From a virus, in the IMG/VR virus record IMGVR_UViG_3300033979_000392, positions 1 to 41,625 of that record: 41,625 nt of DNA; one strand, given 5' to 3'. Below are positions 1 to 41,625 of this stretch, in pieces. The notes beneath the pieces were generated by a model. It searched no databases, was not told the DNA's origin, and saw only the letters and a list, made by a program, of their open reading frames with translations. A program made the position numbers and the translations under genes. Each line of letters starts with the position of its first letter. Position 1 is the stretch's first letter.

Positions 1-127
1 TCCTCGCTCCCCCACCGCGCCACGGTCCGGGCATCGAGCCCGACGACCTGGGCGAGCTTGCCCAGGGTGACGCCGTCGCGCTCGAGGGCCGCTTGCAGCT
101 TTGGGTGAAGGTCGGGCACTAGCGCTC
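1..127. repeat. Terminal direct repeat, left copy (circle closure)
   Basis: Bases 1-127 are identical to 41499-41625. Joining them gives a circle of 41,498 bp. The reverse strand of this copy holds the first codons of the regulator that is complete at 40985-41617, so that gene simply continues across the joint. An exact overlap of 127 bases equals a common assembly k-mer length, so it is more likely an assembly overlap than a physical terminal repeat of the virion DNA. Confidence 0.95.
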
Positions 128-9471: not shown

Positions 9472-9519
9472 AGCGGGACCGCCCCATGTTTTATATACGC
9501 CGTAGCTTTATTTTTCATG

Positions 9520-35379: not shown

Positions 35380-35397
35380 CGCGCGTTCTCCTGTGCC

Positions 35398-35565
35398 GTG
35401 AGGGATGTGAGGGATTTTTGCCCTGTGAGGTTCGCGCACGATCCCGCGCGCGTGTTGTGCGTGCGCGTAGTGCGCGAGCGTAGGAGACTTACAGGCCTGA
35501 TATCCCTCACATCCCTCACGGCGAGCCGAAAGCCCTGTCCTGGCCGTGGGTTACGTGTGAGGGAT
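35398..35565. repeat. Five-copy nonamer cluster with 18-bp inverted pair (ori/operator candidate)
   Basis: GTGAGGGAT occurs at 35398-35406, 35407-35415 and 35557-35565, and inverted at 35502-35510 and 35511-35519. The two tandem pairs form a perfect 18-bp inverted repeat with 86 bases between. The middle contains alternating purine-pyrimidine tracts (about 35436-35478), prone to Z-DNA or melting. It occupies the whole gap of 193 bases between the primase-helicase end and the next gene. Confidence 0.75.
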
Positions 35566-35572
35566 TTCGAGA

Positions 35573-38095
35573 TCACGACGCATCTCCACCGAAGCGAAGC
35601 AGAAGGCCTCTTGCCTCCCCACCTCTCGAATGAATCGATGAGACGCCCAGCCGAGAAAGCCGTCGACCGAACTTCTGGATGGTGACCGGCCGCATGCCGA
35701 CCGACGTGACCCAGTTGCGATAGTCGACGTAGAGCTTCGCCCCGAGGGTCGTGGCGGTGGACCGCTCGCACCTGGCGTCGACCCAGACCGAGACGCTGTC
35801 AGCCTCGTTGACCCAGCGATAGACCTCGGCCTCGCTCGACGCCACGTTCGTGTACCGAAGGTCTGGTAGCACTCGGGCGACGCAGCGGGCGTACCAGCTC
35901 GCGATCGCGCCGAGCTCGCTCGTGAGCAGCTCGGGCCAGTCCGTGCGCCTCTTCGGCGAGTCCTTCGGAAACACGTTCGGAAACCCGATGATGCGCCACC
36001 GGCGCTGAAACCCGGCGCTGAAGTCGCGAAGGGCCGGCAGGTCGTTGGCGGCGTAGAGGTGACCGGCTCGGCAGTTGAGATCGAAGGGCGCTTCTCGGAT
36101 GTGCCGGGCCTGGACAGTCTCCCCGCTGATGATGGCCTTGACCGCCTCGGCGCCGAGGATGTCGCCGTCGGGCATCTCGGAGACGATGTTGATGGCCGAG
36201 CCGACCAAACTCGCCCGGTTGTATTCCTTGCCCATGTCCTGCGGGGACACCGCCGTGATGGACGACGCCGGGAAGATGGGCCGCACGGCGTGGTTCAGGA
36301 ACGTGCTCTTACCGTTGGCGCCGTGGCCGAGCAGGATGGTCGCGGTCTCGAAGCGAGTCGCCACGCCAGCGAGGCAGGCCCCGACGAACTCGGACAGGAA
36401 GAGCGCCCTCTCGGCGGCGTCGTCGCAGCCTTCGAAGCACGAGCCGAGCAAGTCGAAGAGGTGAACCGGGTCCTTGTCGGTGTACTCGAGGTCGATAACG
36501 TGCCGAACCCGATGGTCGGGTGACGGCGGTTCGACCACGACCCCGCCTCTACGAAGCGTCGCCATGCCGTTACGGAAGGCGATGGCGCCGACGTGGTCGC
36601 GGAAGAACTCGGGGTCAGCACGCTCGACCTTGGCCCGCTCGACGACGCTCTTGATCTTGGCGTTGCCGAGCCGCATCGGCATCGGATCGCCTCGGAACGA
36701 TGGGATGGGCGAGCCCTCCCACGCCGCAACGTGGTTCTCGATCTGAAACGCCTTGAGCGGTCGCCACCGTGGCGACTCGTAGCGCCAGAGGGTGCCCTCG
36801 CAGCCGACGACGGGCGCTTCGAGCCCGGCCTCGAGCTCCTGACAGAGCGCGATCGCCAGGGTCACGTCCGAGTCGCTCTCGAAGCGGACCTCGTTGGCGC
36901 CGTCGAATTGACGGGGCCGCTCGGTCTTGCCCTTCGCCTTCTCGCCCTTCGGCTGCGCCGCCCTCACCGCCTCCCAGTCCTGGCGCGCGAGCTCGCCGCC
37001 GCGGACCAGGTCAATCAGGTCGGGGTCTGCGAGCCGGTCGACGTAGGGCTCGAGGTGCCCTTCGTCTACGAGCTGGTCGCGCACGCGCTTGGCCGCTTCG
37101 TCCGGGGCCATGCCCCACGTCGCCGCCATGAGGCCGAACGGCGTGTAGCTCTTGTTCCCGTCGAGCCCGTGCGGCTCCATGCTCGTCGTTCGGACGAACA
37201 GGTTGCCGTCGGGCGTGACGTAGGCACTGTGCTCGCTCGGCGTCTTCTTCGAGCCGGGGCGCCGATAGGCGGGTCGTCCCTGGTGGTCGTGTGACCGCAT
37301 CCAGCCCATGGGCAAGAGGACGTCATCCCAGGACTTCACGCGGTTGAACGTGTCGCCGGGACGCTCGGACTCGCCGTTGTACTGCACGGGCCGCGGGGGC
37401 CTTGGCGGTGCCGGTGGGAGTGGCGGCGGCGGTGGAACGTGCATCGCCAGAGTCGCGGCGAGCTCGACCGGGAGCGGCGTGCTCATCGGTCCGACGTCGA
37501 CCTTGTACGCCTGGCGCTTGCCTTCCCGCATGACGTTCGGGAGTCGCATGAGGCGGTTCCAGTCGGTCAGCCGGTCGACCTCCATCCCGGCATTGACACA
37601 GAGTGCATAGAGCCCGTCGCGCGCCCGCTCGTAGGCATCGAGCTCGAGCGGCTCGGTGACGACGAGCAGGCGAGCCCCGCCGCGCGTGTCGTAGCGGACG
37701 AGATGAGGCTGCAGCCACGCCGGGAGGCGGGCGACGGACTCACTGAACGCCGCTCGCCACTCGGGCCGAGCGCTCCGGTCCGGTGACGAGTCCTTGCCGA
37801 CCTTGTCATCCAGGTCGATGAGCAGGGCGCTAAAGACCGGACGGATCCCGAGCGCCGCGAGCGCCGGCAGGGCTTCCTTGTTGATGCGCGGCGCCTGCGG
37901 CAGGACAGCCCCGGCCGCGTTGACCAGGTCGTACGAGACGCAGTGCGCATCGGTCTGGTGCTCGGCGCCGAAGGCCTGCACAGGCGACATCGACGGCCAG
38001 AACCGGACGGTCTTGCCGTCGGCTCGGGTAGCACCATCCCTGAACGGACAGTCGCCCTCGAAGCCCACGATCTCGGCTCTCGGAAAGACGATCAT
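35573..38095 (-). CDS. Primase-polymerase/SF3 helicase (D5-like)
   Basis: The 840-residue product has an N-terminal AEP primase-like domain: D94 and D96 in LIDLD, YDTRGGARLL (135-144), DWNRLMRLPN (178-187). A Pro-rich linker (about 220-238) and a middle domain of D5_N type follow. The SF3 helicase has Walker A GHGANGKST (590-598), Walker B-like INIVSEM, the sensor AANDLP and Arg finger region FQRRWRI (about 682-705). Such proteins melt the origin, unwind and prime, and they initiate phage and plasmid replication. Repeat clusters lie immediately upstream and downstream of the gene. Start ATG 38095 is coupled to the preceding stop (ATGA). Confidence 0.9.
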   Translation of the reverse strand: MIVFPRAEIVGFEGDCPFRDGATRADGKTVRFWPSMSPVQAFGAEHQTDAHCVSYDLVNAAGAVLPQAPRINKEALPALAALGIRPVFSALLIDLDDKVGKDSSPDRSARPEWRAAFSESVARLPAWLQPHLVRYDTRGGARLLVVTEPLELDAYERARDGLYALCVNAGMEVDRLTDWNRLMRLPNVMREGKRQAYKVDVGPMSTPLPVELAATLAMHVPPPPPLPPAPPRPPRPVQYNGESERPGDTFNRVKSWDDVLLPMGWMRSHDHQGRPAYRRPGSKKTPSEHSAYVTPDGNLFVRTTSMEPHGLDGNKSYTPFGLMAATWGMAPDEAAKRVRDQLVDEGHLEPYVDRLADPDLIDLVRGGELARQDWEAVRAAQPKGEKAKGKTERPRQFDGANEVRFESDSDVTLAIALCQELEAGLEAPVVGCEGTLWRYESPRWRPLKAFQIENHVAAWEGSPIPSFRGDPMPMRLGNAKIKSVVERAKVERADPEFFRDHVGAIAFRNGMATLRRGGVVVEPPSPDHRVRHVIDLEYTDKDPVHLFDLLGSCFEGCDDAAERALFLSEFVGACLAGVATRFETATILLGHGANGKSTFLNHAVRPIFPASSITAVSPQDMGKEYNRASLVGSAINIVSEMPDGDILGAEAVKAIISGETVQARHIREAPFDLNCRAGHLYAANDLPALRDFSAGFQRRWRIIGFPNVFPKDSPKRRTDWPELLTSELGAIASWYARCVARVLPDLRYTNVASSEAEVYRWVNEADSVSVWVDARCERSTATTLGAKLYVDYRNWVTSVGMRPVTIQKFGRRLSRLGVSSIHSRGGEARGLLLRFGGDAS

Positions 38096-38571
38096 GGGCG
38101 CGATTCCATCAGGTATCTAGATTGATTTACCGCGTGTAGTCCCGCAGCAGTGCTGCGGGACTCCTCCTGCACTTGGGGCGACAGTCCCGCAGCACTGCTG
38201 CGGGACTCCCCCTGCACTTGGGGCGACAGTCCCGCAGCAGTGCTGCGGGACTCCCCCTGCACTTGGGGCGACAGTCCCGCAGCAGTGCTGCGGGACTCCC
38301 CCTGCACTTGGGACGACAGTCCCGCAGCAGTGCTGCGGGACTCTGAGGCCGAAGCCCGCCGCTGCCGCTGCCGTGTGCGAAGCCGGACCCGCTCCGCGTC
38401 CTTCGACTCCTCGGACCGCCCGCGCTTCGCCTCGCAGCGCTTGCAGTGGTTCCGGTACACGTTGCGGCCGTCGACGGGAGACGTACCGATCCACCGGAAG
38501 TCCTGCAGTGACCGGGATTCGAAGCATCCGATGCAGCAGATCTGAAAGTTGACGCCGTGGTCGAACTTCAT
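38092..38571 (-). CDS. Zinc-finger protein with 15-residue tandem repeats
   Basis: From ATG 38571 the 159-residue product has an N-terminal zinc ribbon or HNH-like CxxC pair (ICCIGC and CKRC, about residues 12-46, with FRWIGTSPVDG between). An Arg-rich helix and five repeats of ESRSTAAGLSPQVQG follow. The repeats are encoded by the palindromic DNA array. The zinc part resembles phage HNH/recombination-endonuclease remnants (CKRCEAKRG), but the catalytic His pair is not seen. It immediately precedes the primase gene. Confidence 0.65.
   Translation of the reverse strand: MKFDHGVNFQICCIGCFESRSLQDFRWIGTSPVDGRNVYRNHCKRCEAKRGRSEESKDAERVRLRTRQRQRRASASESRSTAAGLSSQVQGESRSTAAGLSPQVQGESRSTAAGLSPQVQGESRSSAAGLSPQVQEESRSTAAGLHAVNQSRYLMESRP
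38138..38342. repeat. Five 25-bp palindromes at exact 45-bp period
   Basis: Copies start at 38138, 38183, 38228, 38273 and 38318. Each has arms AGTCCCGCAGCA and TGCTGCGGGACT around one central base (G, or C in copy 2). The four 20-base spacers are nearly identical (CCCCCTGCACTTGGGGCGAC, with one change in the first and one in the last). All arms are identical. The array lies within the 3' end of the zinc-finger gene, 43 to 247 bases before the primase start. Iterons, a partition site or a regulator array are possible roles. Confidence 0.92.
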
Positions 38572-40984: not shown

Positions 40985-41617
40985 CTACGACTTTTCGGGC
41001 GGCGGAAGCTGACACTCCACCAGGGCGCGGAGTACGTCAGAAGGTTTCATCCCCCATTGCCGCGCGGCCTCTTCCAGGCGAGCCTGGAAATCGGGTTGCA
41101 CGCGCTGGGCGAAGTAGACCATATGTCCCTTGTGACGGGAACGGATGGTCGAAGCCACATCCTTGAGCACCGAAGCGTTCATGGATGGCAAGCTACCCTG
41201 CGTCTCGAACGGCTGCAAGTCCCCCGTTTTACTTTTCTCGTCATTCAATGGCGTTTCTGCCGTAGTTGCTGGGAGCCTTGTATAACTCGCAAGCGTGGCC
41301 CGGGCTTGCTGGAGCTGGCCTAACAACTCGGCAGCGGCATCTTCAGCGATGTCCAACGCGAGCGTGATCGCTGCCATCGGCACGCCCTCCCCAAGCTCCT
41401 CGAGCACCAACGCCCCGAGCTCCGTCTCGACAACGCGCGCCCTCCCGGCGATGACATCCTCGAGCCGTCGAAACGCCGACGCCCGGGTCCCGTACTCGTC
41501 CTCGCTCCCCCACCGCGCCACGGTCCGGGCATCGAGCCCGACGACCTGGGCGAGCTTGCCCAGGGTGACGCCGTCGCGCTCGAGGGCCGCTTGCAGCTTT
41601 GGGTGAAGGTCGGGCAC
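40985..41617 (-). CDS. HTH plus ribbon-helix-helix regulator (repressor candidate)
   Basis: GTG 41617 is preceded by AGGAG within the stop of the upstream Cys-rich gene (across the joint). Residues 1-40 are a lambda-repressor-like helix-turn-helix (TLGKLAQVVGLDARTVARW). Residues 45-125 are helical. Residues 165-205 fit a ribbon-helix-helix: strand VYFAQRVQ, helix DFQARLEEAARQWG, turn MKPS, helix DVLRALVECQL. Two DNA-binding folds in one chain are rare. Being in the first leftward operon off the divergent operators, it is the best candidate for the lysogeny regulator, by inference. Confidence 0.7.
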   Translation of the reverse strand: MPDLHPKLQAALERDGVTLGKLAQVVGLDARTVARWGSEDEYGTRASAFRRLEDVIAGRARVVETELGALVLEELGEGVPMAAITLALDIAEDAAAELLGQLQQARATLASYTRLPATTAETPLNDEKSKTGDLQPFETQGSLPSMNASVLKDVASTIRSRHKGHMVYFAQRVQPDFQARLEEAARQWGMKPSDVLRALVECQLPPPEKS

Positions 41618-41625
41618 TAGCGCTC
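41499..41625. repeat. Terminal direct repeat, right copy (circle closure)
   Basis: Identical to 1-127. It contains the start codon and first codons of the regulator gene ending at 40985 and the region leading into the Cys-rich gene at 128. Confidence 0.95.

Follow-up and report, generated by a model that had tools for sequence, protein, structure and literature searches.

A run of five perfect palindromes, contained in an open reading frame that ends at the start of a phage primase gene, raises the question of whether these repeats serve the phage as DNA sites, for replication or for another purpose, or have arisen by tandem expansion of a palindrome without acquiring a function. The array lies in IMG/VR virus record IMGVR_UViG_3300033979_000392, analyzed here over its full 41,625 nucleotides (the window). 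We give slightly better than even weight to the reading that a palindromic unit has recently expanded, in tandem and in frame, into a coding minisatellite, and that the C-terminal tail of the zinc-ribbon protein in which this happened is dispensable. The mechanism of expansion and the lack of a function for the array are what we infer. Features of the locus are given in Table 1.

Table 1. Features of the primase locus in window coordinates.
Feature	Coordinates	Strand	Description
Candidate replication origin	35398..35565	.	ATCCCTCAC x5, both orientations, non-coding gap 3' of primase
D5/P4-type primase-helicase	35573..38095	-	phrog_1156 DNA primase (2.8e-39); DUF5906; PDB profile match 7ola DNA primase (1e-37)
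ATGA overlap	38092..38095	-	Zinc-ribbon stop and primase start; sequence read directly
Zinc-ribbon protein	38092..38571	-	159 aa (ICCIGC ... HCKRC); residues 12-83 match phrog_2340 endonuclease
Locally A+T-rich stretch	38100..38129	.	Array to primase start; 37% GC over 30 bp
Palindrome array	38138..38342	.	Five palindromes and four 20-bp spacers (P-s-P-s-P-s-P-s-P), period 45

Structure of the palindrome array

Direct reading of the sequence and TRF both bear out a preliminary description of five identical 25-bp palindromes at an exact 45-bp period in a coding region next to the primase. The perfect palindrome AGTCCCGCAGCANTGCTGCGGGACT, with the same 12-bp arms in every copy, is found five times, starting at 38138, 38183, 38228, 38273 and 38318. 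TRF reports a single array (38138-38343, period 45, 4.6 copies, 97% matches) with a score of 391, and every other row scores 61 or less. Copies differ at exactly three positions, as had also been described: the dyad center of copy 2 (G/C), a spacer base after copy 1 (C/T) and a spacer base before copy 5 (G/A). All three are non-silent in the zinc-ribbon frame, giving T/S, E/G and S/P. The longest direct repeat in the array region is 72 bp, shorter than the 127-bp end overlap of the assembly, so the copy number should be resolved.

In 60 simulated first-order Markov genomes of the same size, the model on which the rarity of the seed palindrome rests, the longest perfect arm (loop of at most 3) was usually 8-10 bp and reached 12 once. 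A single palindrome with arms of 12 bp is already a rarity, and chance does not account for five in tandem. The array starts and ends exactly at a palindrome and its flanks match the spacer at only 4/20 and 5/20 positions, so the seed was palindrome-spacer-palindrome, probably two palindromes 45 bp apart. The array can be read through in all six frames, the 45-bp unit being free of stops in each, and an open frame there is thus, by itself, no evidence of coding. The open frame that the earlier remark linked to the 45-bp period is weak evidence either way.

The invariance of the arms had been taken as a sign of selection on the DNA. The probability that all three differences in 205 bp miss the arms by chance is 0.07, and it rises to 0.17 if the G/C change at the dyad center, which is what an inverted palindrome gives, is counted as an inversion and only the two other differences are considered. 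Template switching between inverted repeats needs no selection to homogenize arms and to invert spacers (PMC8604942).

Genome completeness and uniqueness of the array

The record carries an exact 127-bp terminal repeat (window positions 1-127 and 41499-41625), the sign of a complete circular phage assembly of 41,498 bp, which makes a search for further copies in the genome meaningful. No further copy of the palindrome with fewer than 8 mismatches is present in the window, and no exact copy occurs elsewhere in 85k genomes; the array is absent from IMG/VR and GTDB genomes. Neither the array nor its gene has a relative in IMG/VR, GTDB genomes, INPHARED phages or PLSDB plasmids, and the comparison with related phages proposed in the preliminary description returned no array sharing the arms in the collections searched. 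The many dispersed copies that define a mobile palindromic element (REP or RPE type) are not found.

Two partial matches were rejected as relatives. A 19-bp core of the palindrome occurs as a single copy in one contig (L045), in an unrelated prophage-like structural region. A Streptomyces plasmid match to the repeat peptide (H111) runs antisense to the annotated gene, its source being a different 45-bp minisatellite whose array has no palindromes. TerL and helicase have relatives (78-96% best-segment identity), but the contigs of these are without the replication module. No relatives of the VRR-NUC-like protein were found, and a profile search with the primase gave distant matches only.

The zinc-ribbon gene and its surroundings

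The reading frame that carries the array is taken to be coding because its stop forms the ATGA overlap with the primase ATG and because its codon usage upstream of the array is good. The protein has CxxC...CxxC motifs, and its C-terminal half consists of the 15-aa repeat ESRSTAAGLSPQVQG. Its best family match, phrog_2340 (E=1.2e-4), covers only family positions 10-77 of 171, and a Pfam search gave no match at E<=1. In several comparator phages the primase is closely preceded by a gene of the HNH/endonuclease VII-like or RusA-like kind; the zinc-ribbon gene may accordingly be the decayed remnant of a nuclease, with the nuclease domain lost. The log-likelihood ratio (LLR) per codon is +0.23 bits in the zinc part and -0.30 to -0.69 bits in the repeat, whichever frame is read; the repeat unit falls among the lowest 3.4% (LLR) and 4.4% (CAI) of 15-codon gene windows. 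Because codon usage ranks so low and the ends of the array coincide exactly with palindromes, the array is supported as a DNA feature and not an ordinary protein stretch, and the repeat is not shaped as ordinary coding DNA.

The PrimPol/SF3 helicase that had been placed after the array is a D5/P4-type primase-helicase, and its start lies 43 bp from the array. The A+T-rich stretch between them is among the few lowest in GC in a genome of 67.5% GC, with similar minima at 9486, 33646 and 41227. No DnaA box occurs at the array, and the GC skew of the genome shows no clear V and is uninformative. Scans of the array region for promoters and terminators found nothing, and an Rfam search of it returned no family. 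Among the proteins examined, a non-systematic selection, no ParA or ParB gene was noticed; a centromere-like site or a recruiting array for the zinc-finger protein, both suggested in the preliminary description, would still be conceivable.

A candidate replication origin 3' of the primase

The preliminary description had suggested that the palindromes are iterons of a replication origin. This was also our initial view, backed by a test of k=11 repeat clusters in which 8 of 12 lie within 500 bp of a primase end against 1.7 expected, with none of 20000 random placements as high, in a permutation test without correction for the selection of loci. It was dropped once a 9-mer search revealed a second repeat cluster on the other side of the primase. 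ATCCCTCAC has five exact copies in the genome, all within 35398-35565, and the shorter-word search found no other. The cluster ends 8 bp from the primase stop, in the gap that extends to the downstream gene, whose ribosome-binding site and ATG lie near 35380. It has the layout of SaPI/D5-type iteron origins, namely multiple short iterons in non-coding DNA directly 3' of the initiator gene; the palindrome array, 5' of the primase and inside an ORF, does not. The SaPI-type initiators SaPI5 Rep and Cch2 have their iteron binding sites immediately 3' of the genes that encode them (PMC7581432). Given this arrangement, and since the clusters of comparator loci are also 3', 35398-35565 is the better candidate, and the phage origin is more probably located there than at the palindrome array.

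The same test, a 9-mer with at least four copies in 350 bp, was used for all loci. Clusters were found at the primase 3' end in 8 of 26 comparator loci (phages and plasmids with D5/P4-type primases) and at the 5' end in none, at a threshold chosen after the cluster in the window was known and then left unchanged across loci. These comparators were hand-picked from a spread list and have only about 25% identity with the window primase; the eight are not all independent, Mycobacterium phages JF1 and Patt being near relatives, and the unannotated locus L042 was left out of the scoring. Shuffled comparator loci almost never contain any 9-mer cluster. In Lactobacillus phage phiadh, a rep_origin is annotated at the primase 3' end.

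Several comparators merit mention in their own right. Gordonia phage GMA4 (L022 6190-6580) has GCGGCACCC iterons in both orientations, together with the DnaA-box-like TTATCCACA, on the 3' side of a D5-type primase that carries only a hypothetical annotation, and this region looks like an unannotated origin. In JF1 (L027 5880-6108) and Patt (L044 5905-6087), repeated CATGTCCC-type 9-mers form an origin-like cluster at the primase 3' end. Caulobacter phage Seuss (L015 4726-4843) has tandem GACCCGCGAGCGG repeats approximately 400 bp 3' of the primase.

The candidate origin is arguably more useful than the array, as it offers a testable prediction for a phage whose replication genes are without a close relative in the databases searched. 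A working rule would be to look for the origin directly 3' of D5/P4-type primases.

Possible explanations for the array

As a coding minisatellite, the array would have begun with two identical, hairpin-forming palindromes 45 bp apart, multiplied by replication slippage or by recombination between the palindromes, both of which palindromes favor. The expansion would be tolerated because stops are absent from every frame of the unit and the ATGA coupling to the downstream primase is preserved. The youth of the copies, together with hairpin template switching that homogenizes their arms, would account for their continued identity. The array has what an in-frame coding minisatellite should have: near-identical tandem copies, a period divisible by 3 and an ORF that stays open throughout. 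Consistent with this explanation are the three differences in 205 bp, the absence of a copy or relative from the genome and from IMG/VR and GTDB genomes, the ends at palindromes with flanks unlike the spacer, the six open frames, the poor coding scores of the repeat beside the positive score of the zinc part, and the incomplete match to the endonuclease family. An origin role has the better candidate described above, and palindrome-free 45-bp in-frame minisatellites occur in other GC-rich DNA (11.4 copies in a Streptomyces plasmid, see below). On the other side, a perfect palindrome this long arose in only one of the 60 simulations, and the exact ends make the palindrome, and not an arbitrary segment, the unit. 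The array also lies close to the primase start and beside the A+T-rich stretch, and a neutral array of long hairpins should be unstable and tend to be deleted; that it survives is a hint of a role. No relative with the zinc-ribbon gene was found in the databases searched, and recency and dispensability are presumed.

The same edges and position, with ten half-sites in perfect dyads, would suit a second cis-acting site, with the five palindromes bound by a phage protein that acts as a dimer. This could be the primase-helicase, the zinc-ribbon protein or a nearby HTH protein, and its binding might, e.g., autoregulate the primase operon, titrate the initiator or assist the 3' origin in replication. 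Phage lambda offers a precedent, having dyad iterons within a replication gene (PMC5043065; PMC4488673). We regard such binding as unlikely, though worth serious consideration: the 45-bp spacing amounts to 4.3 helical turns, which is not a whole number, the same test shows a 5' array in none of the comparators, and the half-site matches the 3' iteron at best at 6/9 positions, where most random 45-mers of the genome reach 5-6. Rather unlikely, too, is a joint action of the array and the 3' iteron origin, in which a dimeric protein on the five intragenic dyads would couple initiator expression to copy number; if true, the primase gene would be flanked by two different repeat systems. It is improbable that the repeats act in the mRNA, as five stem-loops in the zinc-ribbon/primase transcript that slow ribosomes or RNases and tune the primase through the ATGA coupling. 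The two genes are same-strand neighbors with overlapping stop and start, a single palindrome folds at -20.8 kcal/mol and the 289-nt region at -187.3 (z = -9.5); however, the folding has no discriminating power, since every DNA palindrome yields an RNA hairpin, and Rfam contributes no family. Nor is a 5' hairpin general, since single palindromes with arms of at least 9 bp occur 5' in 3/25 comparator loci, two of which are close relatives. Least of all do we expect a core replication origin in which an initiator opens DNA at the five palindromes. The k=11 clusters near primases of this class and the adjoining A+T-rich stretch speak for it, but the canonical cluster is 3' of the primase, where SaPI5 Rep and Cch2 place theirs, as are the phiadh rep_origin and all comparator 9-mer clusters at the primase, and neither DnaA boxes nor GC skew point to the array. 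A possible lambda-like intragenic origin is no longer our leading idea. What stands of the overall reading in the preliminary description is that the array is a DNA feature and that a primase follows it; the argument from selection and the assignment as origin iterons are not supported.

Comparison with known repeat systems

The array resembles a coding minisatellite in Streptomyces plasmid NZ_CP108097, which also has a 45-bp period and near-identical copies within an annotated gene in GC-rich DNA. That minisatellite contains no long palindrome, whereas the phage unit is dominated by the perfect 25-bp palindrome that opens and closes the array. PARCEL elements are likewise tandem dyad-symmetric repeats inside ORFs, associated with mobile elements in some taxa, but they encode a 25-residue (75-nt) amphipathic DUF285-type repeat with imperfect dyads. 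The phage repeat has 15 residues, a perfect dyad and no Pfam match, and does not correspond to the 25-residue DUF285-type HMM repeat of PARCEL. The lambda ori shares with the array several dyad repeats inside a replication-module gene (gene O in lambda) and an A+T-rich neighbor. The lambda repeats, however, are 19 bp, near-perfect, closely spaced and located in the initiator gene, and in the phage another repeat cluster occupies the usual place of the origin. The SaPI Rep and Cch2 origins, in which the iterons immediately follow, on the 3' side, the gene of a self-loading helicase of the same D5-type class, are matched by the 3' cluster; the palindrome array, 5' of the primase and within a gene, is not a SaPI-type element.

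Under the minisatellite explanation, the array would show how palindromic units can expand in frame within a phage operon. Two rival cis-elements flank one primase, and the 3' element has the canonical form and position for this class of initiator.

Two further repeats or motifs were observed. The minisatellite of NZ_CP108097 (L021 1446-1959) has 11.4 copies with 98% matches, and its annotated gene is hypothetical. The contigs of relatives (L005, L007-L010) all have their first base on (G)GTGCCTGTCGGG or a few bases from it at most, a short distance before the small terminase gene and corresponding to approximately 33721 in the window. This pattern points to a physical genome end (cos site) at this position.
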